Shown here: positions 5,678 to 42,339 of the stretch, piece by piece | How the letters are laid out: every line of letters begins with the position of its first letter | Position numbering within the stretch: the first letter of the stretch is position 1 | Source of the DNA: a virus | Length of the DNA: 42,843 nt | Reading direction: 5' to 3' (one strand) | IMG/VR virus record: IMGVR_UViG_3300023700_000002 | Coordinates: 1 to 42,843 of that record | The notes under the pieces: generated by a model | The model's input: only the letters and a program-made list of their open reading frames with translations | The model's database searches: none | What the model was told of the DNA's origin: nothing | Position numbers and translations under genes: made by a program

Positions 5678-5902
5678 ATGCGAACAAAACTCTCAGTCGT
5701 AAAAGACCACATGGCCTCACAGCGTTGGCAGGACGCCATACGCATTGCGGCGCGATTCCCTCAGCTTGGGGAGCAGCGCAGCGCCATTCTTGACGCCCAC
5801 ACCGCTTACACCAACCCGCGCTGGTCGCTCGGGCTTGGTCATGACCTAGCGGCGTTGAAGGAAGCCGGTCGGCTAGCCCTCATCGCCCGCTTCGGCGAAT
5901 AA
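5678..5902 (+). CDS. Small conserved phage protein, plus strand, unknown function
   Basis: A 74-residue protein starting at the ATG after AAGGA (7-base spacing). It reads as a compact helical protein (KDHMASQRWQDAIRIAARFP, then HTAYTNPRW near 46-54). I recognise this as a type of small protein common in proteobacterial phages near terminase or methylase genes, but know no function. It stands alone on the plus strand between two minus-strand genes and its last 30 bases overlap the 3' end of the methyltransferase gene. Any transcript would be antisense to the methyltransferase end and then to its coding region. No convincing promoter was seen upstream. Confidence 0.7.
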   Translation: MRTKLSVVKDHMASQRWQDAIRIAARFPQLGEQRSAILDAHTAYTNPRWSLGLGHDLAALKEAGRLALIARFGE

Positions 5903-7291
5903 TTCCTCATCAATCTCAACGTCCCCGCACGCTTCGACGGCCTTCTTCGGGTCGCCCTTGCAGAAAACGAGAATGTTTTGATGCGTTTTGCCTAGCTTTC
6001 GGCTGGCGCTGAATTGCTTTCCTGCGCGGATTGGCAGGCTACCTGCCACCGTCACAAGGATGGCTTCGTTGTAGTAGTCCAACCCGGCATCACGGAAGGC
6101 CTGCACGGTGTCGCCGATGAAATCGTAATACGCCCCGCGCTTGTCTCTCACCTCGCCCACCACAAAGCAGGCGAAGCGGTCAGGCTTCAACAGGCTGCAG
6201 GTCTTGTGGATGATCTGAAGGTAGGCGTCCCGAAATTCGGGGTAGTCCAACGTCGAAAGGTCTGCCGGGTCGTCCGAGTAGACCTCAAGGTCTGCATACG
6301 GCGGGCAGGAAAACACGAAGTCGGCCTGCGTGCCCTTGCACAGCTTGTCGATGTTGCGTGAGTCGCCGGTAATCCATACCGGCTGAATCTCTTGGCACAG
6401 GCTCGCGGCTTGCACCCGGTTGGCCTCAACCTGCTCATCGCGCAGGTCAACGCCGATGTATTCGCGGCCCAACTTGGCGGCGACGATGCCACGCACGCTG
6501 CCACCGGCAAACGGGTCAAGCACCAAGCCACTCGGCGGGCAAAACCAACGGTAGGCAACCTCGCACAACGTGGGGTCGAAGATGCTGGTGCCCTTCTGAA
6601 CGATTGCGTCCGGTCGGGCCTCGACAAACTCAGCCCATGTGACCTCGCGGCCCACCTTGGCCTCGTATTCGTTTTTCGCGCGGTAGGTGGCTGGCGGTTG
6701 CGACGATACCGAGAACGTCAGCGTTTCATCGCGCCCAACCTCGGAGCGCAGCCCCATGTCTATCCAGCCGCGCTTTCGGTCTTGCCACCAGCCTTCGCGG
6801 GCGTTGAGCACGGAAAACGGCGGTATCAGGAAGCGGTCAGACAGGCTCACACCATCGCCGAAGCCCTCGGCCCCAACGCTGTTGAGCAAGTCGTCTAGTT
6901 CTTCCTGCGAAAAGCCGATCAGGTCAATGTCGAAGCCCTCGGCCTGCAGGTCGCCCAACTCAAGCGCCAGCAATTCTTCATCCCACCCGGCGTTCAGCGC
7001 CAATTTGTTGTCGGCGATTATGTAGGCACGTTTCTGCGCCTCGCTCATGCCTTCCAGTTGGATGCAGGGCACCTGCTCGATGCCGAGCTTACGTGCGGCA
7101 AGAACTCGCCCATGTCCGGCGATGATGCCGTTGCCGCCATCGATGAGCACCGGATTCGTCCAGCCCCATTCCTTGACACTCGCGGCGATCTGCGCGATTT
7201 GCGCGTCTGAATGCATCCGGGCGTTTTTGGCAAACGGAATCAGCGACTCGACGGCGCGGTATTCAATGACTAGCCCGCTGGCTTCTGTCAT
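5873..7291 (-). CDS. ParB-domain DNA methyltransferase (N4/N6 type)
   Basis: A 472-residue fusion. Residues about 11-105 are a ParB/Srx-like nuclease-fold domain (NPVLIDGGNGIIAGHGRVLA, then KRAYIIADNKLAL). The C-terminal part is an AdoMet-dependent methylase with DPFAGGS (259-265) and CPPY (329-332, in place of DPPY or NPPY). Such proteins methylate adenine-N6 or cytosine-N4 in phage DNA, often to escape host restriction. The cysteine in CPPY is less common than Asp/Asn/Ser. The ATG at 7291 is preferred; a TTG at 7312 in the same frame lies right at a terminator T-run. Two intrinsic terminators precede the gene, so its expression likely depends on antitermination or an adjacent promoter. Confidence 0.9.
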   Translation of the reverse strand: MTEASGLVIEYRAVESLIPFAKNARMHSDAQIAQIAASVKEWGWTNPVLIDGGNGIIAGHGRVLAARKLGIEQVPCIQLEGMSEAQKRAYIIADNKLALNAGWDEELLALELGDLQAEGFDIDLIGFSQEELDDLLNSVGAEGFGDGVSLSDRFLIPPFSVLNAREGWWQDRKRGWIDMGLRSEVGRDETLTFSVSSQPPATYRAKNEYEAKVGREVTWAEFVEARPDAIVQKGTSIFDPTLCEVAYRWFCPPSGLVLDPFAGGSVRGIVAAKLGREYIGVDLRDEQVEANRVQAASLCQEIQPVWITGDSRNIDKLCKGTQADFVFSCPPYADLEVYSDDPADLSTLDYPEFRDAYLQIIHKTCSLLKPDRFACFVVGEVRDKRGAYYDFIGDTVQAFRDAGLDYYNEAILVTVAGSLPIRAGKQFSASRKLGKTHQNILVFCKGDPKKAVEACGDVEIDEELFAEAGDEG

Positions 7292-7310
7292 GCGTGCGGT
7301 TGAAACCCTC

Positions 7311-7344
7311 AAAAAAATACCCGAGCAGCGTTAGCCACTCGGGT
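7311..7344 (-). terminator. Intrinsic terminator just upstream of the methyltransferase
   Basis: On the minus strand ACCCGAG (7344-7338), a 12-base loop, CTCGGGT (7325-7319), then A and seven T residues (7317-7311). It ends only about 20 bases before the methyltransferase ATG. It is the second of two terminators in a row and may act as an attenuator or antitermination target. Confidence 0.8.
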
Positions 7345-7364
7345 AAATCACCCTCAGGAGACAC

Positions 7365-7406
7365 ATGAAAAACCACGAAACACAACAAAAGCCACGGTAC
7401 AAATGA
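7365..7406 (+). CDS. Possible 13-residue leader-type ORF
   Basis: An ATG placed four bases after CTCAGGAG, the same ribosome site used by several real genes of this phage, opens a 13-codon frame (MKNHETQQKPRYK) that stops right before the hairpin at 7409-7430. It lies on the plus strand between two minus-strand terminators. The match to the phage's own ribosome site is the only support; no plus-strand promoter was identified with confidence. Confidence 0.25.
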   Translation: MKNHETQQKPRYK

Positions 7407-7430
7407 AAAAGCCGCCTGTTGAGGCGGCTT
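7406..7430 (-). terminator. Strong intrinsic terminator after the Q-position gene
   Basis: Nine-base stem AAGCCGCCT/AGGCGGCTT (7430-7422 and 7417-7409) with a four-base loop; on the minus strand it runs into five T residues (7410-7406). It would end transcription coming from the early operon or from the candidate promoter at 7488-7460. On the plus strand the tail is poor. Confidence 0.85.
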
Positions 7431-7459
7431 ATTCGGTACTGATGGCTAGAGTGACATAA

Positions 7460-7488
7460 ACGATAACACCTTGTATCAAAAGCGGCAA
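7460..7488 (-). promoter_or_regulatory. Candidate late promoter (PR'-like)
   Basis: Minus strand: TTGCCG (7488-7483), 17-base spacer, TATCGT (7465-7460). The start would be near 7452, with the two terminators directly downstream. This order (Q-like gene, promoter, terminator, late genes) is that of lambda PR'/tR'. The boxes are imperfect, so this is inferred mostly from position. Confidence 0.45.
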
Positions 7489-7521
7489 GGCCTCAGAGCG
7501 AATAAAAACAACCATGAAATG

Positions 7522-8121
7522 TCATTGGCATTCAATTACGCCGTCGCGCTCAAAGTACGGGGTTAGCCGGTCAAACGCCAAGGTTTCAAGCTCGCGCAAG
7601 CGGTGGCTGATCTTCTTGGCGTGACGGCACAGCGTGTCCTTGTTGCAGCCGGACTTCTCCGAAATGGCGCGAAAGGTCGGGCGCATCCCCTCGACGTTTG
7701 ATGTGGCGCGAATCACCAGCAGCTTCAATACCTCGGGCGGCAAACTAGCGTGCTCGGCGGTCAGCCAACCGGCAAGGCTGTCCAGCGCCTCGGCTTTTTC
7801 TGGCGGTAGGTAGTAGGCCGTCTCGCCATCGCGGGTCTTGCCGACCTTGACCATGCCGTAGCGGGAAACGATCACCCAGAACTCGGGGCCGAACAGCTTG
7901 GTACGGCACGAGGCGCGAATCATGGCGCATTGCCCGCGAATCTCAAGCGAAGTCAAGCCGCCGAAGTTGATGCTGCCAGGTTCCGATTTCCAAAGACCCA
8001 ACGACATGAGGTGTTCGCGCAGCATCTTCGCCATGACGCTTTCGCTAGATGCCTCAAGCGACTCCATGATGAAGGAAAAATGAACCGCTTGGCTCGTGCT
8101 CTTGAAAATCGCCTTGTTCAT
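7522..8121 (-). CDS. Phage regulator at the Q position, with C-terminal helix-turn-helix
   Basis: A 199-residue protein; the ATG at 8121 overlaps the stop of the preceding gene as ATGA, so longer upstream frames are rejected. The N-terminus (MNKAIFKSTSQAVHFSFIME) and a central LTSLEIRGQCAMIRAS are typical of a conserved phage family found at the end of early right operons. The C-terminal third (about 130-175: RATSNVEGMRPTFRAISEKS then GCNKDTLCRHAKKISHRLRE) reads as a helix-turn-helix. It is the last gene of the cro-replication operon, and a candidate promoter and tandem terminators follow, which suggests a late activator or antiterminator. That role is inferred from position, not shown by a known antiterminator domain. 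Confidence 0.7.
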   Translation of the reverse strand: MNKAIFKSTSQAVHFSFIMESLEASSESVMAKMLREHLMSLGLWKSEPGSINFGGLTSLEIRGQCAMIRASCRTKLFGPEFWVIVSRYGMVKVGKTRDGETAYYLPPEKAEALDSLAGWLTAEHASLPPEVLKLLVIRATSNVEGMRPTFRAISEKSGCNKDTLCRHAKKISHRLRELETLAFDRLTPYFERDGVIECQ

Positions 8122-8330
8122 CGCGCCCCCGTGTTTTGGTACTGACCACAGCGGCGCATGTTGACGATGCCCGGTTTGGTGTTGCTCAACTTGCAATACG
8201 CCATGCCCCACAACTCGGATTTATGGACGCAGCCCATGCACCCGCTTTTCTTGGCAAACCGCGCCTCGCGCATTTGTTTGGCCTCAAGGACCAACATAGG
8301 GTCACGATATTGATGTGAATCAAATGCCAT
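8118..8330 (-). CDS. Small cysteine-rich phage protein
   Basis: A 70-residue protein with four cysteines arranged as a possible zinc site: CMGC (31-34), then YCKL near 46 and RRCGQY near 61. It begins with an acidic/hydrophobic segment (YRDPMLVLEAKQMREARFAKK). Similar Cys4 proteins are frequent in lambdoid nin-type regions; function unknown. Its start lies 11 bases inside the end of the VRR-NUC gene and its stop overlaps the next ATG, so it is one link in a tightly coupled operon. Confidence 0.75.
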   Translation of the reverse strand: MAFDSHQYRDPMLVLEAKQMREARFAKKSGCMGCVHKSELWGMAYCKLSNTKPGIVNMRRCGQYQNTGAR

Positions 8331-8691
8331 GCGCGGCCTCCAACTTCAACATGCCTGCATAGCCTTGCATCACACGGGCTGCAGCCTGCCAAGACCAGCA
8401 AACCGTTACCATCCAGCCTTCTTGCTGCATCCGGTCGATGCGCTCGCGCTGCTCCTTGCTCGGGTTGCCGTCGCCGTGCTTGAACTCGATGGCTAGGCCC
8501 ACATACCCACCACGGGCAACGGGCCACGATACATCGGGGACGCCAGCTTTGACGCCTTCCTTTTTCAGCTTTGCTGCGACGGCTGGATGGCGTGCACCGC
8601 CGTTTGGTGTCGCGTGCAACAACTCAATGCCCGGAAACCGCTGATAGTTCGCCCATTCAAAGAATGCCGATTGGGTGTCATGTTCGCTCAT
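8320..8691 (-). CDS. VRR-NUC domain endonuclease
   Basis: A 123-residue protein covering essentially one VRR-NUC domain, a PD-(D/E)xK nuclease fold. Visible are E3 and H4 with Q7 at the N-terminus, the HATPNGG segment, GVKAGVPDV (about 46-54, catalytic Asp) and GLAIEFKHGDGNPSKEQRE (about 64-82, catalytic E-x-K). In phages these act as Holliday-junction or structure-specific nucleases and fill the RusA/RuvC slot. It would resolve recombination or replication intermediates before packaging. The ATG overlaps the stop of the 37-residue membrane protein upstream (ATGA). Confidence 0.9.
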   Translation of the reverse strand: MSEHDTQSAFFEWANYQRFPGIELLHATPNGGARHPAVAAKLKKEGVKAGVPDVSWPVARGGYVGLAIEFKHGDGNPSKEQRERIDRMQQEGWMVTVCWSWQAAARVMQGYAGMLKLEAAHGI

Positions 8692-8801
8692 TCGCTCAAT
8701 CTTTCAACTTCATCTTCTGACCTCGGGCGTGTCGCCCACCACGCACCGACAATAAAACCCACTGCGAGGGCCAGCCACGCCACCACGATGACCTCAATCA
8801 T
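8688..8801 (-). CDS. 37-residue single-span membrane protein
   Basis: A very short gene with its own ribosome site (GAAGGA, nine bases before the ATG at 8801). The product has one strongly hydrophobic helix (VIVVAWLALAVGFIVGAWW, about residues 4-22) and a charged cytoplasmic tail. Its stop codon overlaps the VRR-NUC start as ATGA and its start is overlapped by the end of the preceding small gene, so both borders are coupled. Function unknown; in this position lambdoid phages often carry small membrane proteins of the early operon. Confidence 0.7.
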   Translation of the reverse strand: MIEVIVVAWLALAVGFIVGAWWATRPRSEDEVERLSE

Positions 8802-8949
8802 TTGTGTGATTCCTTCGATCTTTGAGTTGACCCACGGGGCCACCATGTGGCGGTTTGTGCGGAATAGGTTTGCCGTTCACCAATGACGGCTTGGTGAATG
8901 CGTCCTGCGAGCCGGGGCGCACTGGTGGCTGTTTTGGCTTGTAGGTCAT
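8794..8949 (-). CDS. 51-residue proline-rich hypothetical protein
   Basis: Starts at the ATG at 8949, which overlaps the stop of the HTH gene upstream as ATGA; its own stop lies inside the start of the next gene. The product is hydrophilic and rich in proline, lysine and glycine (YKPKQPPVRPGSQ, KPIPHKPPHGGPVGQ), with no predicted fold that I can name. Coupled overlaps at both ends are the main evidence that it is translated. Confidence 0.6.
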   Translation of the reverse strand: MTYKPKQPPVRPGSQDAFTKPSLVNGKPIPHKPPHGGPVGQLKDRRNHTND

Positions 8950-9197
8950 GCCGCGAGCCTTTCCTGTGCTTCTTTGGTTGGCGTCACCAGCGTGTAGCTC
9001 GCAACGTGACAGCCCTCGCCGAATCGGTTGAACACTTCAATCATTTTTTTCTCAATCCTATGTCCGTCGCGCTTGAGGTCGCTGATGCGCGATGCCAGCC
9101 GCATGATGCCGAGGTCTTGCAATGCCTCAAACTGGGTCAATTGTCGCCCCGATTTCAGGTGGTCGAGGATTCGTTCCGATTGTGTCTTGTGGGTCAT
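8946..9197 (-). CDS. Small winged-helix/HTH phage protein
   Basis: An 83-residue protein of the short helix-turn-helix family common in phage early operons. The N-terminus ERILDHLKSGRQLTQFEALQ followed by DLGIMRLASRISDLKRDGH (about 27-45) is a clear helix-turn-helix/winged-helix pattern, and the Arg/Lys-rich helix RLASRISDLKR would contact DNA. It may help regulate early or replication functions. It is coupled by 4-base overlaps to both neighbours and has AGGAGC before its start. Confidence 0.8.
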   Translation of the reverse strand: MTHKTQSERILDHLKSGRQLTQFEALQDLGIMRLASRISDLKRDGHRIEKKMIEVFNRFGEGCHVASYTLVTPTKEAQERLAA

Positions 9198-9400
9198 GTC
9201 TTGCTCCTTTTACTGCTTAACCATTCGCGCCGTGTCGTGACGGCTTCTGTTTTTTCTTGGATGAAGTGCGTGCACTCCCTCGGGTAGACCGCACTCTTGT
9301 AAACGCTTCGCGGCTGCAACTCGCAGCAGCCAAACCCAAGCGAGGCCATGGCTTTTGCATCGCGCAGGTTGAAACGCTTGCAGGCGATGCACTCGGTCAC
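9194..9400 (-). CDS. Small cysteine-containing phage protein
   Basis: A 68-residue protein with CIACKRF near the N-terminus, FGCCEL in the middle and RECTHFI further on, five cysteines that could bind one zinc ion. This short family is common just downstream of phage replication genes; its function is not known. The ATG at 9400 overlaps the stop of the replication gene (ATGA), and its own stop overlaps the next start. Confidence 0.7.
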   Translation of the reverse strand: MTECIACKRFNLRDAKAMASLGFGCCELQPRSVYKSAVYPRECTHFIQEKTEAVTTRREWLSSKRSKT

Positions 9401-10320
9401 CGCGCAACACCCGCAATGAGTTCAGCTACGCGCTTTTGTCCGGCCTTGTCGGGCGCACCGCCTTCCAACTCCAAAACGCGCCTCTCAACCCGTGCACGGT
9501 AAGCAGGGAAATGCTCTCGGTTGGCGCTCAGGTCGTGCTCATTCCAGTCACCGACACCGATTTCAATGCCCTTGGCACGAATGCCCTTGGCTGTCTCACG
9601 CCAGTCCATCGGCTCTGCGCCGCCATCAGCCTCAGGCACTACGCCGTCAAGCCAGCGCTTGCCGCGCAGGTAGACCAACGGAGCTTCCACAAAGCCCTCG
9701 GCCCATTTCTTGGTGCCCCGCTTCGTTCGCACGTCGCCCAAGATCGCCTCGGCCTTCTCGTCAAGCTGGTTTCGTTTCCAGTGGTCAAGGCACTTGGCCT
9801 TGTCCTGCTTTCGCTCGCCCTTGGGCCATGCCAACCAGAAATCATCAAAGCGATTTGCAGCCGCCACCCGCTTGCGGGGGGTAGGGGGGGTATCTTTTGG
9901 TGTTGGTGTTGGTGTTGGTGTTGGTGTTGGTAGCTCAACATCCGTTTGCGCGTCTTGTTGAGCGTCCGTTGAGCGTTCGTTTAACGGACGTTGAGCGTTC
10001 GCTCTGCGGGCGTTGACCGATGCTTGAGCCGACGCTCTGGCTTTAATCTGCTTGTCCTGCATACGCTCGATTTCGTCGTTGCATCGGTCGTGATACCAAC
10101 CGTCAACGCCTTGAGCAAAGAATTCGCGCACAACAGCCGCCACGGTGTCGGCGTGGTCACGCATACGAATAAGGCGGGCCACCTCTGCCAAATCAAGCGG
10201 CAAAGCCTTCTCATGGAGGTAGTAAAGGTCAATGCAACGTCGGTATGCAATGTCCTCAATGGGGCTAAGGTGCGCTGTGTGCGCCGCATAGTCCCCGATG
10301 TGGAACGGGTAATAGTTCAT
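9397..10320 (-). CDS. Replication initiation protein (DUF1376 N-terminal domain)
   Basis: A 307-residue protein. Residues 1-85 match the DUF1376 winged-helix domain of phage initiators (MNYYPFHIGDYAAHTAHLSP..., IEDIAYRRCIDLYYL). A flexible linker (about 100-150) follows, with a (TP)n stretch, then a conserved C-terminal region (FDDFWLAWPKGERKQDKAK and RTKRGTKKWAEGFVEAP). Such proteins occupy the position of lambda O. The linker DNA carries 12-base repeats at 11- and 22-base steps that look like origin iterons. It overlaps the Cro-like gene upstream by four bases, so PR drives it. No separate helicase loader gene is seen next to it, so the host helicase route is unclear. Confidence 0.85.
   Translation of the reverse strand: MNYYPFHIGDYAAHTAHLSPIEDIAYRRCIDLYYLHEKALPLDLAEVARLIRMRDHADTVAAVVREFFAQGVDGWYHDRCNDEIERMQDKQIKARASAQASVNARRANAQRPLNERSTDAQQDAQTDVELPTPTPTPTPTPKDTPPTPRKRVAAANRFDDFWLAWPKGERKQDKAKCLDHWKRNQLDEKAEAILGDVRTKRGTKKWAEGFVEAPLVYLRGKRWLDGVVPEADGGAEPMDWRETAKGIRAKGIEIGVGDWNEHDLSANREHFPAYRARVERRVLELEGGAPDKAGQKRVAELIAGVAR
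9899..9930. repeat. Hexanucleotide tandem repeat in the replication gene
   Basis: Five full copies of GGTGTT plus two bases. On the coding strand it encodes alternating Thr-Pro in the linker between the two domains of the replication protein. Copy number could slip, but any six-base change would only lengthen or shorten the linker by two residues. Confidence 0.9.
9957..10023. other. Candidate replication origin: iteron array inside the replication gene
   Basis: Three copies of GTTGAGCGTYCG begin at 9957, 9968 and 9990, and a degenerate copy (GTTGACCGATGC) begins at 10012. The steps are 11, 22 and 22 bases, one or two helical turns, and place copies in different codon phases, so protein repetition does not explain them. 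An inverted pair CGTCCGTT (9963-9970) and AACGGACG (9983-9990) is embedded. Lambda-type phages keep the origin at this very place in gene O. No obvious AT-rich melting region was found close by. Confidence 0.55.
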
Positions 10321-10544
10321 CCCGCGTCCTTCACCCGAAGCTCGGCACGCTTCGCACGCTTGATGATTTCAAGCTGCTGGTCAGCAAAGGCCTCCATCTT
10401 GTCCACCACGGTGACTTTGGCATCACCTTGGCCTCGCAAAAATCGGCTGACGCTGGCTTGTCCTATGCCAGTCGATGCCGCGATCTGCACCTGTGTTGCG
10501 CCCGTCTTGATCAACTTTTGGCGCACGCGTTCTGCTGTACTCAT
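10317..10544 (-). CDS. Cro-like repressor
   Basis: A 75-residue protein with a helix-turn-helix near residues 15-36 (TQVQIAASTGIGQASVSRFL) and a basic C-terminus (IIKRAKRAELRVK). It is divergent from the CI-like gene, is the first gene of the replication operon and overlaps the replication gene by four bases, all as for lambda Cro. The ATG at 10544 has GGAAG upstream; an in-frame extension to 10661 is rejected because it would read through the promoter. It should bind the operator at 10582-10597 and turn down early transcription. Confidence 0.85.
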   Translation of the reverse strand: MSTAERVRQKLIKTGATQVQIAASTGIGQASVSRFLRGQGDAKVTVVDKMEAFADQQLEIIKRAKRAELRVKDAG

Positions 10545-10574
10545 CACACTTCCTTGCTTGTTGTTTCTGTGGTG

Positions 10575-10604
10575 AGTATATATCCATTTTTGGCTATTAT
10601 GCAA
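10575..10604 (-). promoter_or_regulatory. PR-like promoter with embedded operator
   Basis: Minus strand: TTGCAT (10604-10599), 18-base spacer, TATACT (10580-10575). The spacer holds ATAGCCAAAAATGGAT (10597-10582), an imperfect inverted repeat whose core recurs at the PL-like promoter. Repressor bound here would block the promoter of the Cro-like gene. On the plus strand a weak TAGTAT (10619-10624) could be the -10 of the repressor's own promoter. Confidence 0.6.
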
Positions 10605-10642
10605 AATCGGGGAATCCCTAGTATTTCTATTTGGATTTGGAT

Positions 10643-11131
10643 ATGCTTCGCCGGATGGCAAAGCCGATCAGAGAGCGCGTTGCAGAGGCCTTACGCGCAT
10701 GGATGAAAGCGCGGCCCGACCTCGACACTCAGGTGAAGGTGTCAGAGAAGACAGGTATTGGTCAGTCCAGCATCAGCCGCATACTTCGCGCACGCACCGG
10801 TACCAACATCGACAATCTTGATGCAATTGCACAAGCATTCGGACGCGACCCTGTTGAAATGCTTTCACCGGGCATGAGTGTTGCGTTGCAAAAAGTAGGT
10901 GCGCTTCCCGAGGCAGAACAGTCAAAGATTGTTGCGTTCATTGAGTTCACTTTGGCTCAACAATCCACACTCAGTTTCAATGAAGAACACCCGGCCCAAC
11001 CCGCCATGCAACAAGCTATGCGCAGGGCGGCAGGCCGTTCACCAACAGCATCACGACAGAGGAACCATGGAAAGAAAGACGCAGGTAATACAAATCCACG
11101 CCGTGCCCGGAAGTTGGGCGGCAACCAATGA
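10643..11131 (+). CDS. CI-like repressor without peptidase domain
   Basis: A 162-residue protein. A helix-turn-helix lies around residues 27-55 (TQVKVSEKTGIGQSSISRIL), followed by NIDNLDAIAQAFG; the recognition helix GIGQSSISRIL is nearly that of the Cro-like protein (GIGQASVSRFL), so both may read the same operators. The remainder is a basic, low-complexity tail with no LexA/S24 peptidase motifs, so RecA-triggered self-cleavage is not expected and induction must work another way. ATG 10643 is chosen; TTG 10631 and ATG 10655 are alternatives, and none has a good ribosome site. Transcribed toward a terminator at 11399. Confidence 0.75.
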   Translation: MLRRMAKPIRERVAEALRAWMKARPDLDTQVKVSEKTGIGQSSISRILRARTGTNIDNLDAIAQAFGRDPVEMLSPGMSVALQKVGALPEAEQSKIVAFIEFTLAQQSTLSFNEEHPAQPAMQQAMRRAAGRSPTASRQRNHGKKDAGNTNPRRARKLGGNQ

Positions 11132-11378
11132 ACGCAAGATGATCGTGCGTGAGGGCTGCATAGGAGAAATCGACTGTCAACCTAACCGACAGGGAGTCGC
11201 GTGCATTTGCGTCATGGTTACGGAAGATGGCGACATTAGGTCACGCGCAGTCAATGTCGAGCCTGAGCATGTATTGCCCATCAATGCCGTGTTGACGCGC
11301 ATCAAGACCAAGCTGCGCACCTTCGCCAGCCGCGCTAAATCGAAACACCCGCTGGCAGAAGTCATCAACATCAAGTAA
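11067..11378 (+). CDS. Repressor-operon companion protein, unknown
   Basis: A 103-residue protein whose ATG follows AGAGGAACC and lies inside the end of the repressor gene, so it is co-transcribed in the lysogen. It holds the position of lambda rex genes. Sequence: beta-rich N-terminal half (VIQIHAVPGSWAATNERKM, then CICVMVTEDGDIRSRAVNV) and a basic C-terminal helix (RIKTKLRTFASRAKSKHP). I do not recognise a family. A strong terminator follows 20 bases after its stop. It might be a lysogeny-expressed accessory gene; exclusion activity is only a guess. Confidence 0.7.
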   Translation: MERKTQVIQIHAVPGSWAATNERKMIVREGCIGEIDCQPNRQGVACICVMVTEDGDIRSRAVNVEPEHVLPINAVLTRIKTKLRTFASRAKSKHPLAEVINIK

Positions 11379-11398
11379 GCCCTTTCCACGTACCAATA

Positions 11399-11424
11399 AC
11401 CCGGCCTGATGCCGGGTTTTTTTT
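11399..11424 (+). terminator. Intrinsic terminator of the repressor operon
   Basis: ACCCGGC-CTGAT-GCCGGGT followed by a run of eight T residues (11417-11424). A textbook rho-independent terminator closing the repressor operon before the PL-like region. Confidence 0.95.
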
Positions 11425-11442
11425 CGCCTATCGTTTCCATTT

Positions 11443-11521
11443 AGCCATTTTTGGCTTGGCGAAGTATTGATTTTTGGATATAGTCGGCAGACCGCAGACA
11501 ATCAAAGCCAATAGCCAAAAC
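11443..11521 (+). promoter_or_regulatory. PL-like promoter with three operator-like sites
   Basis: Promoter TTGGCG (11456-11461), 17-base spacer, TATAGT (11479-11484). Operator-like sequences surround it: AGCCATTTTTGGCT (11443-11456, inverted repeat), GATTTTTGGATATAG (11469-11483, over the spacer and -10) and ATAGCCAAAAC (11511-11521, start region). The same TTTTTGGMTAT core lies in the PR-like promoter, so the two promoters are probably repressed together, as OL and OR are in lambda. Confidence 0.65.
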
Positions 11522-11565
11522 CTATGACGTTTCGCAAACCATTAGAAATATATTTGTTGTCGTTG

Positions 11566-11594
11566 GCTGTCTTCTATTCCGATTGCGGTATAGT
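11566..11594 (+). promoter_or_regulatory. Recurrent promoter motif, copy 1
   Basis: TTCTATTCCGATTGCGG followed by TATAGT (11589-11594). The -35 position (11566-11571, GCTGTC) is poor. The same block, including CCG-N4-CGG, returns at 17629-17651 and in part at 24040-24056, each time just upstream of a gene. It stands about 40 bases before the first gene of the recombination operon. Confidence 0.6.
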
Positions 11595-11631
11595 TAAGCC
11601 ATCGACAACGAAACACCTCAGGAGTAACAGC

Positions 11632-11931
11632 ATGATCACCAAGACAAAACAAAACTGGACAGTCGGCGCAACAGTGAAAGTTGGCTTCCTCTCATTGGTC
11701 GTGAAGGCTGCAGTTGCAACACCCGGCGACTACATGCCTGATGCCTACATCCTGACAAACCAAGCAGGCACACAACTCTACAAATTCGTTCCTCACAACG
11801 GCGTCGAAAAAATCAGCGTTGAGGAAGCCCGCGAAATGTTGGCAGAAGCCCAAGAACGCGCCGCACGCCTTGCTGCTCAAGCAATTGCCAAAGCTGCAGC
11901 GGTCAACGAAATCGAATCCCTCTTTGCATAA
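11632..11931 (+). CDS. First gene of the left early operon, unknown
   Basis: A 99-residue protein starting at the ATG after CTCAGGAG, the best ribosome site type in this genome; longer upstream frames would cross the promoter and are rejected. The N-terminal half is beta-rich (WTVGATVKVGFLSLVVKAAV, ending in YMPDAYILTNQAG), the C-terminal half a long alanine-rich helix (EEAREMLAEAQERAARLAAQ). No family recognised. Its place directly after PL is that of lambda N, but it lacks an arginine-rich RNA-binding N-terminus, so an antiterminator role is not supported. Confidence 0.75.
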   Translation: MITKTKQNWTVGATVKVGFLSLVVKAAVATPGDYMPDAYILTNQAGTQLYKFVPHNGVEKISVEEAREMLAEAQERAARLAAQAIAKAAAVNEIESLFA

Positions 11932-11956
11932 ACACAACCAACCTCAGGAGTAAACC

Positions 11957-12823
11957 TTGAACGCAATCACTACACAGGAAACGACAATGCTGCCCGCGCT
12001 GCAGATGAGCGAAGCCGAGCTTATTGAAGTCTTAGCCACCAGTCTGTATCCCGGTGCTCAAGTCACGAGCATCAAAATGGTCTTGGGCTACTGCAAAGCC
12101 GCTGGCCTAGACCCGATGCAAAAGCCCGTGCACATCGTCCCCATGTGGGACAAGAACACCAAGTCGATGCGCGACGTGGTGATGCCCGGTATTGGCCTTT
12201 ACCGCACTCAGGCTGCACGCTCCAACGCGTACGGCGGCATCGATGAGCCGATTTTTGGCCCTGACGTGACCGAGAAGGTTGGCGGCGTTGAAATCACCTA
12301 CCCACAGTGGTGCAAGGTCACAGTCAAGCGCCGATTGCCTGACGGTGTCACCGCTGACTTCACCGCCGTTGAGCGATGGAAAGAGAACTACGCCACCGCA
12401 GGCAAGGACACCACCGCGCCAAACGCAATGTGGAAGAAGCGCCCCTACGGTCAGCTTGCCAAGTGCGCCCAAGCCCAAGCCTTGCGCATGGCATTCCCCG
12501 AAATCGGCGCAGAGGCCACCGCAGAAGAAATGGAAGGCAAAGCATTGTTCGACGGCGAAACCATCGAGGCCGAAGCGACCCCCCGCGTGGCTATGCCCAA
12601 GCCCAAGACCGAAGCCGCGCAGACGGTTGAGCAAAAGCAGACCACCCAGACCGATGCCGCACCCAAGCCAGTCGCCGCAGGCCAACTCAAGTGGATTGAG
12701 AACAAGTGCAAGGCGCTTGGCCTTGAGGTTGATTCCGTGCTCAAAGAAAAGGGCGTTGAATCCCTCGATACGATCACGCCCGAGCAGTTCGATACCGTCA
12801 AAGCTCACTTGATGGCGGCGTAA
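11957..12823 (+). CDS. bet: Redbeta/Bet-family single-strand annealing protein
   Basis: A 288-residue protein. Residues about 20-190 match phage Bet recombinases: YPGAQVTSIKMVLGYCKAAG, LDPMQKPVHIVPMW, VVMPGIGLYRTQAARS, and the conserved QLAKCAQAQALRMAFPE near residues 165-180. The C-terminal 90 residues are a linker plus a small helical domain (LKWIENKCKALGLEVDSVLK) that in this family binds SSB or the exonuclease. It anneals complementary single strands during phage recombination. The start is TTG at 11957, placed exactly as ATG is elsewhere after CTCAGGAGTAAACC. The exonuclease partner follows two bases after its stop. Confidence 0.9.
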   Translation: MNAITTQETTMLPALQMSEAELIEVLATSLYPGAQVTSIKMVLGYCKAAGLDPMQKPVHIVPMWDKNTKSMRDVVMPGIGLYRTQAARSNAYGGIDEPIFGPDVTEKVGGVEITYPQWCKVTVKRRLPDGVTADFTAVERWKENYATAGKDTTAPNAMWKKRPYGQLAKCAQAQALRMAFPEIGAEATAEEMEGKALFDGETIEAEATPRVAMPKPKTEAAQTVEQKQTTQTDAAPKPVAAGQLKWIENKCKALGLEVDSVLKEKGVESLDTITPEQFDTVKAHLMAA

Positions 12824-12825
12824 TC

Positions 12826-13392
12826 ATGCTGACGTTTGACGAAGCCACGCACACCTACTATTGGCACGGCAAGCGCGTGCCGGGTGTGACTGGCCTGCTC
12901 AAGACCCTGCACAACTTCGACGGCGTGCCTACCGATGTGCTTGAGGCCGCATCACAGCGCGGTACCGCCGTGCATTTGGCCTGCGAATACCTCGACAAGG
13001 GCATTCTCGATGAGGACAGCGTAGACCCTGCAATCGCAGGCTACGTCAACGGCTGGCGTCTGTTCATGGCTGAGAAGAAACCAGCATGGAGCGCGATTGA
13101 GCAGATGTTCTACCACCCCGCGCTTGCCTACGCTGGCACGCTCGACCGCGAAGGCCTCATGGAGGGCGACGAGTGGACGCTGGACATTAAGACTGCCGCC
13201 GCATCACACCCCGTTTGGGGCATCCAAACCGCCGCCTATGCAAATGGACGCGGCAAACCAAAATCACGGCGCGGCACCGTGCAGCTTCGCGCTGACGGCA
13301 CCTACCGCCTGATCGAATGGAAGGCCAGCACAGATTGGCCCGTTTTTGTATCTCTCATCACCATCACCTCATTTTTGGAGCAACACAAGTGA
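12826..13392 (+). CDS. RecB-like PD-(D/E)xK exonuclease, partner of Bet
   Basis: A 188-residue nuclease. Motifs: RGTAVHLACEYLDKG (about 45-59), GTLDREG (about 106-112, catalytic Asp), WTLDIKTAAA (about 118-127, D-x-K) and GIQTAAYA (Q-x3-Y) shortly after. This is the PD-(D/E)xK layout of RecB/Cas4-type exonucleases that pair with Redbeta proteins in the way lambda Exo does, degrading one DNA strand to expose substrate for annealing. Start at ATG 12826, three bases after the bet stop; its stop overlaps the next gene's GTG. Confidence 0.85.
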   Translation: MLTFDEATHTYYWHGKRVPGVTGLLKTLHNFDGVPTDVLEAASQRGTAVHLACEYLDKGILDEDSVDPAIAGYVNGWRLFMAEKKPAWSAIEQMFYHPALAYAGTLDREGLMEGDEWTLDIKTAAASHPVWGIQTAAYANGRGKPKSRRGTVQLRADGTYRLIEWKASTDWPVFVSLITITSFLEQHK

Positions 13393-14165
13393 CAACAGAA
13401 AACATCTTCGCGCCGCTGGCGACAATCGCCGCGCCCGACGCGAACCAACTCAACACCCGCGCACAATCCGCGCTGGCAATGGTCGAGTCGATGGTCATCG
13501 ATTCGCAGGAAACCTACGACCTCGCAGCCGACGAACTGAAAGCGATCAAGTCCAAGGCCAAGACGCTTGAAGAACAGCGCACCGCCATCACCGGCCCGAT
13601 CAACAAGGCGCTTAAAGCTGTCAACGACCTGTTTCGCGCACCTGGCGCATACCTTGAACAAGCCGAGGCGATCATCAAACGCAAGATGATCGGCTACACC
13701 ACGGAGCAAGAGCGCATCGCCGCCGAACAACGCCGCAAGGCAGAGGCCGCGATTCGCGCCGAGCAAGCCCGCATTGCCAAAGAAGCCGCCGAGCGTGAAG
13801 CCGCAGCCCAAGCCGAAGCCGCCAAGCTGATCGAAGCAGGGGACGCCGAGAAAGCCGCCGAGGTGCAAGCCGAAGCAGCCATTGAAGCCGCCAGCCTCGC
13901 CGCCACCGCGCAAGTGATGACCGCGCCAGTCGCAGCGCCAGCCGTTGCCAAGGTGTCCGGCGTTTCAATGCGTAGTGCGTGGAAGGCCGAGTGCACCGAC
14001 AAAGCCGCGCTGGTGGCCTTCGTTGCCGCCAACCCGCAATTCCTCAACCTGCTCGATGTGAACACCTCCGCGCTCAACCAAATGGCGAAGGCCATGCGCG
14101 AAACAATGAAGATCGACGGCGTGCGCGTCTACGAAGAAAAGCAACTCGCCAGCCGTTCGGCCTAA
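13389..14165 (+). CDS. Coiled-coil protein of the recombination operon
   Basis: A 258-residue protein starting with GTG at 13389, overlapping the exonuclease stop (GTGA). A long alpha-helical coiled coil spans about residues 30-180: first a Glu/Ala/Lys-rich helix (ETYDLAADELKAIKSKAKTL), then EQERIAAEQRRKAEAAIRAE with Ala-rich repeats. A short conserved C-terminal domain follows (SMRSAWKAECTDKAALVAFV, ending NQMAKAMRETMKIDGVRVYE). The type is frequent beside exonuclease genes in proteobacterial phages. It could serve a Gam-like or scaffolding job in recombination, but nothing in the sequence shows it. Confidence 0.75.
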   Translation: MTTENIFAPLATIAAPDANQLNTRAQSALAMVESMVIDSQETYDLAADELKAIKSKAKTLEEQRTAITGPINKALKAVNDLFRAPGAYLEQAEAIIKRKMIGYTTEQERIAAEQRRKAEAAIRAEQARIAKEAAEREAAAQAEAAKLIEAGDAEKAAEVQAEAAIEAASLAATAQVMTAPVAAPAVAKVSGVSMRSAWKAECTDKAALVAFVAANPQFLNLLDVNTSALNQMAKAMRETMKIDGVRVYEEKQLASRSA

Positions 14166-14196
14166 CCACAATTTCAACCACCCTCAGGAGTAAACC

Positions 14197-14484
14197 ATGA
14201 CCAAAACCTACATAGAGCCAGCAGCGTACACCGACGCGCCACGCCCTCACATTGAACTCAAGCCTGTCGAATCCTCGCAGGTCAAAGCCATCGGCTACGA
14301 CGAGGCCACACAGACGCTCGCCGTCACCTTTACCCGTGGCGCGGGCGCGATCTACCACTACCCGAACGTGCCCAAGGAAACCTACGACGCGTTCATTGCC
14401 AGCGAGTCGATTGGCAAGTTCTTCGGTCAGCACATCAAGCAACTGGCCTTCACCAAGTTTCCGGCAGAAACCGCTGAGGCATGA
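14197..14484 (+). CDS. KTSC domain protein
   Basis: A 95-residue protein after a CTCAGGAGTAAACC ribosome site. The KTSC domain is recognisable: PVESSQVKAIGYDEATQTL (about 23-41), then TFTRGAGAIYHYPNVPKETY and FIASESIGKFFGQHIK. The family is named after lysyl-tRNA synthetase C-terminal domains and small phage proteins; its biochemical job in phages is unknown. The stop codon overlaps the NinB start (ATGA). Confidence 0.85.
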   Translation: MTKTYIEPAAYTDAPRPHIELKPVESSQVKAIGYDEATQTLAVTFTRGAGAIYHYPNVPKETYDAFIASESIGKFFGQHIKQLAFTKFPAETAEA

Positions 14485-14867
14485 TGAAGCGGGTTTTCAT
14501 GCTGGTGCATCAAGCGGCGCGTCAAAACGCCGTGGACGCCGTGCGCACTGCGCCCGATGACTACATGGTCACGATCAGCCAGAAAACCCGCACGCTTGAC
14601 CAAAATGCGAAGTTTCACGCGATCTGCACCGACCTTGCTAAGGCAAAAGCTGAGTGGGCGGGTAAGCCTCGCACAGCGGCGCAGTGGAAGGTCTTGCTTG
14701 TCTCAGGCCATGCAGTAGCAACTAAAGAAGACGCAGAAATTGTCCCCGGCATCGAAGGCGAGTTTGTCAACATCAGAGAGAGCACGGCGCTAATGAGCAA
14801 AAAGCGCGGCTCTAGCCTGATTGAGTACACGCTGGCCTTCTGCGCTGGTCTTGGAATTGAGGTTTAG
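14481..14867 (+). CDS. ninB: NinB recombination protein
   Basis: A 128-residue protein of the NinB (lambda Orf) family, a mediator that binds single-stranded DNA and SSB and substitutes for RecFOR. Signature segments: VTISQKTRTLDQNAKFHAIC (about 30-49), AAQWKVLLVSGHAVA (about 66-80), and IRESTALMSKKRGSSLIEY (about 97-115). Length is close to lambda Orf (146). It sits with bet, the exonuclease and SSB, a full phage recombination set. Two in-frame ATG codons start the gene; the first overlaps the upstream stop. Confidence 0.85.
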   Translation: MMKRVFMLVHQAARQNAVDAVRTAPDDYMVTISQKTRTLDQNAKFHAICTDLAKAKAEWAGKPRTAAQWKVLLVSGHAVATKEDAEIVPGIEGEFVNIRESTALMSKKRGSSLIEYTLAFCAGLGIEV

Positions 14868-14873
14868 CGATCA

Positions 14874-15140
14874 ATGCAATCAAAAAACAAAAAAACAACT
14901 CAAGCCGAGCGTGATTACATTGCCAAAGTGAAAGACCTGCCTTGCAGTGTATGTGATGCACCGCCACCAAGCGACGCGCACCACATCAAGCAATCATCAG
15001 CCTACACATGCGTGGCGCTTTGCAAAGAGTGCCACCAAGGGCCGTTTATGGGATGGCACGGTCAAAAACGAGCATGGGCACTGCGCAAGATGGACGAACT
15101 CGACGCGCTCGGCGTGACCGTGGAGAGGCTACAAGCATGA
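14874..15140 (+). CDS. HNH/Ref-like zinc nuclease candidate
   Basis: An 88-residue protein with two CxxC knuckles (CSVCD near 24-28 and CKECHQ near 50-55) enclosing DAHHIKQSS (about 35-43), then GPFMGWHGQKRAWA. This is the metal-binding layout of a small beta-beta-alpha (HNH-type) nuclease such as Ref or NinG, with HH as general base. It could cut recombination intermediates or displaced strands. The family is likely, catalysis unproven. It overlaps the following gene by four bases. Confidence 0.7.
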   Translation: MQSKNKKTTQAERDYIAKVKDLPCSVCDAPPPSDAHHIKQSSAYTCVALCKECHQGPFMGWHGQKRAWALRKMDELDALGVTVERLQA

Positions 15141-15334
15141 GGACAATCTGTGCGCTGTGTGGTCGCAAGACCATGCCAGCCGTCTACATTGGAAACGAGG
15201 CCATTGGCCCAAAGTGCGCCAAGCGTGCAGGGTTGCTCGTTACCAAGATTACAAAGGGTAGCCGCCTACGATTCATGGGCCGCTATTCAAATCAAAACCG
15301 TGACCCAAAAACCATCGACATGTTCGATAACTAA
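15137..15334 (+). CDS. Small zinc-ribbon protein
   Basis: A 65-residue protein whose ATG overlaps the stop of the HNH-like gene. It has CALCGRK at residues 5-11 and GPKCAKRAG (about 27-35), a three-cysteine pattern that may be completed by another ligand. The C-terminal half is basic. It resembles small zinc-finger accessory proteins of phages; no function is known. Coupled translation supports expression. Confidence 0.65.
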   Translation: MRTICALCGRKTMPAVYIGNEAIGPKCAKRAGLLVTKITKGSRLRFMGRYSNQNRDPKTIDMFDN

Positions 15335-42033: not shown

Positions 42034-42339
42034 TTACTCGTCGTAGGTAACGCCAACGAGAGGGGCTTTGCGAGCCATCAGGTCTGCGATTTGCTCGGGG
42101 TCTTTCACGACTTGTTCAGCGGCCCAAGCGTGGCTGGTGCCTTCTTCTTCGTTGATGTAGCCGTAGGGACGGGCGAGCGTCACAGATTCTGGCAATTCAA
42201 CCTTGTCGGCATCTTTGGCGGCTTTCGCTGCGGCCTTTTCAGCCTCTTTCGCAGCTTTCGCGGCCTCTTTTTCAGCGGCTTTCGCTGCGGCCTTTTCTTC
42301 GGCTGTCAATTCTGGGTTTTGTGTGTTTTCGTCTGCCAT
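42034..42339 (-). CDS. Small Lys/Ala-rich protein downstream of coat gene
   Basis: A 101-residue protein. Half of it (about residues 12-50) is a highly charged Ala/Lys/Glu helix (EEKAAAKAAEKEAAKAAKEA), the rest a compact segment with VTLARPYGYINEEEGTSHAW and EQVVKDPEQIADLMARKAPL. The design recalls small connector or decoration accessory proteins encoded just after the coat gene; the C-terminal part resembles a short domain seen in many phages at this place. Unknown function. Confidence 0.65.
   Translation of the reverse strand: MADENTQNPELTAEEKAAAKAAEKEAAKAAKEAEKAAAKAAKDADKVELPESVTLARPYGYINEEEGTSHAWAAEQVVKDPEQIADLMARKAPLVGVTYDE

Follow-up and report, generated by a model that had tools for sequence, protein, structure and literature searches.

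A putative replication origin inside a proposed DUF1376 initiator gene of a phage

The stretch of viral DNA analysed here (the window; 42,843 bases, positions 1 to 42,843 of IMG/VR record IMGVR_UViG_3300023700_000002) carries at 9897-10022 what is very probably a phage replication origin located inside its own initiator gene, as judged from comparative sequence analysis. The region combines a lattice of 11-bp direct repeats (iterons) with a short-period, A-rich tract on one side of it, and the gene belongs to the DUF1376 family. The initial annotation had proposed an origin at this place, and the recurrence of the array in related genes supports that reading, while the layout, the spacing, the direction of the tract and the gene neighbourhood agree with an origin inside an initiator gene, at which replication of the phage would start. 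The features of the region are as follows.

9397-10320, minus strand: DUF1376 gene, 307 aa, proposed origin-carrying replication initiator (Pfam DUF1376, PF07120, and PHROG matches)
9994-10320, minus strand: N-terminal part, aa 1-109, predicted winged helix and long helix, proposed iteron-binding domain (AlphaFold2 model)
9957-10022, plus strand: iteron lattice of six 11-bp units starting at 9957, 9968, 9979, 9990, 10001 and 10012, codons 100-122 of the DUF1376 gene
Units of the lattice in order from 9957: GTTGAGCGTCC, GTTGAGCGTTC, GTTTAACGGAC, GTTGAGCGTTC, GCTCTGCGGGC, GTTGACCGATG, with 0, 0, 4, 0, 5 and 3 mismatches
9933-9939, minus strand: inverted core GCTCAAC (coding strand GTTGAGC), 24 bases away from that of the first unit
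9897-9931, minus strand: short-period tandem repeat, period 6, coding strand (CCAACA)n with no G in the coding-strand unit, other strand (TTGGTG)n, proposed opening or helicase-loading region
9397-9896, minus strand: C-terminal part of the protein, modelled with low confidence and proposed to contact the helicase or a loader (PHROG replication initiation families, aa 120-231 and 88-237)
10317-10661, minus strand: small HTH gene immediately upstream of the DUF1376 gene (HTH_3, 22.5 bits, just below the cut-off of 23; PHROG transcriptional regulator)
10631-11131, plus strand: divergent repressor-like HTH gene (HTH_3, 34.8 bits)

The phage and its DUF1376 protein

The virus record carries integrase, repressor-like, RecT, exonuclease and SSB genes, indicating that it probably represents a temperate phage. 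A megablast search of window positions 5800-15200 against phages gave no match, and neither did a probe from the start of the gene in E. coli genomes. Elsewhere in the window, a single frame (5873-7312, minus strand) joins a ParB-like domain and a DNA methylase, and imperfect tandem repeats of period 12-33, probably a coding repeat, lie at 42201-42304.

The 307-aa protein is a member of the DUF1376 family, with a Pfam match of 86.7 bits (cut-off 30.1) over aa 2-85; this was the only Pfam family found in it at E ≤ 0.001, and its PHROG relatives are termed 'primosomal protein' and 'replication initiation protein'. AlphaFold2 modelled aa 1-110 with a mean pLDDT of about 95, confidence dropping beyond, and placed helices at residues 8-14, 20-36, 44-50, 54-67 and 78-109 and short strands near 69-76. 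A Foldseek comparison of the whole model with solved structures returned no confident fold (best E 0.59), and the structure alignments of a second look were mostly to winged-helix DNA-binding proteins, with a middling best Z of 6.2. According to the model, the N-terminal part likely adopts a winged-helix fold with a short wing. The array follows the Pfam domain and this modelled winged-helix part, ahead of the C-terminal part. Its proposed location in a flexible linker does not hold throughout: the exact units are mostly in the low-confidence part, but codons 100-109, at the degenerate end of the array, overlap the end of the confidently predicted helix 78-109.

The array in the window

Exact copies of GTTGAGCGTYC (GTTGAGCGTYCG) start at 9957, 9968 and 9990, and the unit starting at 10012 is a degenerate copy with mismatches at three of 11 positions, so that the steps of 11, 22 and 22 bases given in the initial annotation were all correct. 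The array as described there was incomplete, since gap-filling units at 9979 (GTTTAACGGAC, four mismatches) and 10001 (five mismatches) make it a full 11-bp lattice from 9957 to 10022; the range of 9899-10023 assigned to it also covers the (TTGGTG)n tract at 9897-9931, which went unmentioned there and is part of the structure. The inverted repeat said to overlap the array was found as CGTCCGTT (9963) and AACGGACG (9983), and is the variant unit at 9979 facing the neighbouring units. At the place of the inverted core, GTTGAGCTACCAACACC is also found in the loci L044, L091, L095, L098 and L102. The 9895-10030 strand folds into a hairpin with a z of -2.35, 3 of 200 shuffles folding equally well; this probably results from the array having repeats in either orientation.

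The exact copies 1 and 3 are 33 bases apart and hence in frame, and codon repetition therefore needed testing. With the protein fixed and synonymous codons chosen at random, 84.0 ± 6.7 matches were expected at lags 11, 22 and 33 together, as compared to the 117 observed (p = 0.0002), and shuffling of codons or bases gave 55.8 and 55.4 matches (p = 0.0002, the lowest value this test can return). Locally, the highest score at lag 11 was 17, which was less extreme with the protein fixed (p = 0.004), and all 90-base stretches of the window reaching it overlap the array. Single 12-mers with at most two mismatches occurred in the window at chance level (13 found, 10.5 expected), indicating that the unusual part of the array is its clustering and phase. 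Codon repetition is thus ruled out as the cause of the array by the protein-fixed nulls, here as well as in the relatives described below, which upholds the earlier conclusion. Chance is likewise ruled out by the protein-fixed null in the window and by codon shuffling in 101 genes.

The lattice in related genes

Protein searches yielded 80 loci and then 24 more. In all, 153 DUF1376 genes were located, of which 143 were usable and 101 non-redundant; these comprised 71 genes found by protein, the window and the Rac prophage included, and 30 found by the 11-bp DNA pattern, which are biased for that reason and are reported apart. The units in the linkers vary while their spacing is constant, as seen for RCGAACGCTMA (L044), GTCGTTGAACA (L009), AACGGACGTTC (L008), CGGCAATGCCA (L012) and CAACGCACCTG (L032). 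With the protein fixed and the tract removed, lag 11 was significant (p ≤ 0.01) in 24 of the 71 genes found by protein, lag 22 in 18 and either lag in 29, as opposed to none at the control lags 8, 9, 10, 13 and 14 and five at lag 12. When codons were shuffled, lag 11 reached p ≤ 0.01 in 34/71 protein-found and 30/30 pattern-found linkers, the control lags 10 (1/71 and 1/30) and 13 (0/71 and 1/30) hardly at all, and over the 101 genes the lag-11 signal was found in 64 linkers, nine N-domains and two C-termini. Within the DUF1376 domain itself, about nt 105-150 of the gene, TTSAAC-like words stand at 11-bp steps in L005 and L009.

No clear lattice was seen in 14 of the 71 genes, in which lags 11, 12, 21 and 22 were all without significance under codon shuffling. 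Among named phages, the same shuffling gave p ≤ 0.01 at lag 11 or 22 in six of 14 loci (L168, L169, L170, L172, L174 and L176) and not in the other eight, two of which (L171 and L175) reached this level at lag 21, and Rac and its relative L180 at lag 33 only. The linker of L175 (Vibrio phage 234P9) has a different geometry, with three ATGCGAACGCAT units at in-frame steps of 21 bp, or two helical turns. Eleven plasmid records, some of them chromosome-sized, also had a DUF1376 match.

Relatives were also sought by DNA pattern alone. Two adjacent RCGNACGCTNA (CGNACGCT-type) units were matched in 61 IMG/VR stretches, which are not independent (L107 and L133 share contigs with L044, L134 with L002 and L136 with L004, while further stretches are nearly identical to one another), and 47 of the 61 carry a DUF1376 gene. 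The array lies within that gene in 46 of the 47, starting 299-398 nt past the assigned start codon where a start is present; in the remaining locus, L107, the only array is ahead of the start and the gene runs off the stretch. The array is on the opposite strand in five of the 47 loci, and L089, L090, L106, L107 and L121 have an array that begins 41-63 nt upstream of the DUF1376 start codon; neither arrangement can stem from a repeated peptide. Of the 14 stretches lacking a DUF1376 gene, L085 has an apparent one that is truncated where the contig ends, L103, L132 and L141 resemble other initiators by eye (L141 has Phg_2220_C, L103 no Pfam match), and the rest look unrelated.

Arrays ahead of the start codon occupy the usual place of autoregulation, and a winged helix suits a regulator equally well; hence the array could be an operator or copy-number site for autoregulation or self-titration of the DUF1376 protein, with replication starting elsewhere. 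We consider this unlikely, since an intragenic place about 300-400 nt past the start is general in the pattern-found loci and an upstream array occurs in only 5/47, and since an operator leaves unexplained both the directional A-rich tract and the helicase and loader neighbours described below. Autoregulation and use as an origin are in any case compatible.

The spacing itself was examined with the core GTTSAAC. Three such cores at 11-bp steps were found in at least 120 viral stretches, and 82 of the 120 listed lie inside a DUF1376 frame or no more than 150 nt away from one, as compared to three of 107 stretches with 12-bp steps and none of six with 10-bp steps. An open frame runs over the array in 36 of the other 38 listed. 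Pfam (E ≤ 0.01) assigned Lin1244_N to 14 of these frames and DUF1376 to 10 (best 9.9e-7), and in counts overlapping with those, PHROGs gave 'primosomal protein' for 18, 'replication initiation protein' for 14, 'replication initiation O-like' for six and head maturation protease for two. The arrays L307:5551 and L392:46 are outside an initiator setting, and their frames look like the two head maturation protease matches. In L344:4763-6673, the frame over the array has a DnaA_N domain (8.1e-7, aa 561-621 of 637), although this long frame may include non-coding reading. The initial annotation had suggested comparing related phages for a spacing conserved despite protein drift, and such conservation is thus found in distant DUF1376 genes as well as in other initiator families.

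Pairs of CGAACGCT, scanned at distances of 8 to 38 in at least 120 loci and counted in 80 of the 120 listed, were 11 apart in seven cases, 22 in three and 32 in one within DUF1376 genes (10/11 at 11 or 22). Outside these genes, 54 of 84 pairs were at multiples of three, which is what codon repeats give, five at 11 and one at 22.

The short-period A-rich tract

Beside the lattice, a 24-nt run with a period of 6 or 7 and an identity of at least 0.75 was found in the 330 nt after the domain in 92 of the 101 genes, as against none of 101 in the first 270 nt and three of 69 in the last 330 nt. On the coding strand the tract consists of 51% A, 34% C, 6% G and 8% T. The encoded peptides differ (PTPTPT, NQEPITNNQ, NQNQNQ, EPEPEP) since the frame in which the DNA word is read varies, with 296, 67 and 62 occurrences of ACCA in the three frames. 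Among non-redundant triple GTTSAAC arrays, 54 have both flanks, and of these 50 show the run within 70 nt downstream and none within the same distance upstream; shuffling of the downstream DNA of all 56 arrays produced no run; the tract is therefore on a fixed side of the iterons.

Repeats in a linker may also be relics of tandem duplication in unconstrained sequence, or result from selection on a repetitive peptide. Linkers do tolerate repeats, (CCAACA)n is an in-frame Thr-Pro repeat, and lag 12 was significant in 15 of the 71 genes (codons shuffled), including a subgroup (e.g., L010 and L057) with an in-frame 12-bp repeat, which could be a protein-level effect. For the array as a whole, such an explanation is nevertheless very improbable, as 11 is not a multiple of three and the period holds across different units with the protein fixed, the GTTSAAC pattern with 12-bp steps is nearly absent from DUF1376 genes, the tract, where its period is 7 bp, passes through every reading frame, and arrays on the opposite strand or before the start codon are not a peptide effect.

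Proposed mode of initiation and gene neighbourhood

As an origin, the region could operate as follows. The predicted winged helix at the N-terminus of the DUF1376 protein would bind each 11-bp unit and, the units being one helical turn apart, the bound copies would stand on one face of the DNA in a compact nucleoprotein row. The resulting strain may open the A-rich tract, which lies toward the C-terminal end of the gene, and the variable C-terminal part would then pass on the replicative helicase, either that of the host or that encoded by the next phage gene.

The gene after DUF1376 encodes a helicase, loader or replication protein in six of 14 named phage loci, namely a DnaB-like helicase (L169 and L177), a primase/helicase (L168 and L171), a DnaC-like protein (L180) and a putative replication protein (L082); in the remaining eight its annotation reads hypothetical protein or endonuclease. 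In the window, a PHROG scan of 20 proteins, a subset of the frames, detected no helicase or loader; a phage without its own would use that of the host. The initial annotation had suggested cumulative GC skew as a check, and this lent no support, its minimum lying near 16-17 kb and not near 10 kb. DnaA boxes (TTATNCACA, at most one mismatch) numbered 16 in the window with 21.6 expected, which is chance level, and formed no cluster; none was within 500 bp of the array, the nearest near-match (one mismatch) being at 10597.

Iteron similarity had a median cosine of 0.34 in 398 gene pairs with a similar N-domain and a different C-part, and of 0.03 in six pairs with a similar C-part and a different N-domain (background 0.06), in a comparison that included pattern-found genes, in which ancestry is a confounder and the rank correlations were weak (0.20 and 0.05). 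The lambda family exchanges N-domain and origin together, and iterons that track the N-domain fit this habit; sites and binder carried in one gene could move together when phages recombine. The same figures, and C-parts that vary behind similar N-domains, might point to linker DNA that is a recombination junction for swapping N- and C-parts and is kept for exchange rather than initiation, and the tract has a GT-rich strand similar to the DNA favoured by RecA-type proteins. We find little to recommend this possibility and regard it as highly unlikely, because it leaves the one-turn phasing unexplained, because the unit sequence differs between subtypes whereas exchange sites would be expected to remain alike, and because the C-similar sample amounts to six pairs and the rank correlations are weak.

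Comparison with known origins

The origin of phage lambda lies in the middle of the initiator gene O and consists of iterons and an adjoining A/T-rich region, genes O and P being required (passages of PMC7466680 and PMC6022878); each of its four iterons contains an 18-bp inverted repeat, to which two O proteins bind (PMC6022878, same passages). The DUF1376 genes share with this arrangement a predicted DNA-binding N-domain, an origin-like stretch following it, a variable C-part and, in some named phages, a helicase or loader gene as the next gene; in several named phages they also follow CI/CII-type genes. In contrast to lambda, however, the lattice is formed by 11-bp direct repeats without 18-bp inverted repeats, the adjoining tract is A/C-rich with a period of 5-7 bp (CCAACA in the window, 50% GC) rather than AT-rich, and Pfam gives only DUF1376 for the window initiator, in line with the original assignment to a family other than that of lambda O. 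The relation to lambda ori and gene O that had been drawn for this array is therefore apt in layout but not in detail, as the type of unit, the type of tract and the protein family differ; the window element would work like ori-lambda but does not belong to that family.

The Rac prophage of E. coli encodes a DUF1376 protein, YdaU, adjoining a putative replication protein, YdaV. An active origin, oriJ, has been ascribed to Rac, in passages that do not place it in ydaU (PMC3945230). The lattice in ydaU is weak, with p = 0.076 at lag 11 and 0.0066 at lag 33 (L082), the corresponding values in the Rac-like L180 being 0.027 and 0.0033, and its tract is ACAGAT-like, unlike the CCAACA of the window. 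A likeness is also found in phage initiators with Lin1244_N (PF14297), in which a GTTSAAC lattice is followed by an A-rich short-period tract as in DUF1376 genes; these belong to a different Pfam family, are described in PHROGs as 'replication initiation protein', and their arrays are known from the pattern scan alone.

Iteron plasmid origins of the RepE and RepA types have direct repeats bound by a winged-helix initiator, the iterons normally lying outside the initiator gene and being accompanied by DnaA boxes. The window array likewise consists of direct repeats but differs from these in lying inside the gene and in having no DnaA box near it.

Implications

We tentatively suggest that one layout, a lattice phased at one turn with an A-rich tract of 5-7 bp period always on the same, downstream side, is common to DUF1376, Lin1244_N and other initiator families, with the GTTSAAC core recurring; this could well fall short of the truth, but it would have the initiator polymerise with one monomer per helical turn, as opposed to the paired O proteins on the 18-bp inverted repeats of lambda, and the loading machinery recognise the tract in single-stranded form in any coding frame. 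If so, the origins of a large fraction of phages with these genes would be readable directly from sequence.

In the open-access literature searched, DUF1376 is not treated as an initiator and its origin is not described, and the passages of open-access papers that name DUF1376 assign it no function. In one such passage it appears, alongside a putative helicase loader, among the conserved proteins of Acinetobacter phages (PMC5795418). Pfam lists DUF1376 as of 'unknown function', and the recurring DNA signature gives the family a testable job, that of an origin-binding initiator. The arrangement known from lambda, with the origin within the initiator gene, would thereby extend to other protein families, in which the geometry of the repeats differs, and the signature points to where the start of replication might be sought in many uncultured phages.
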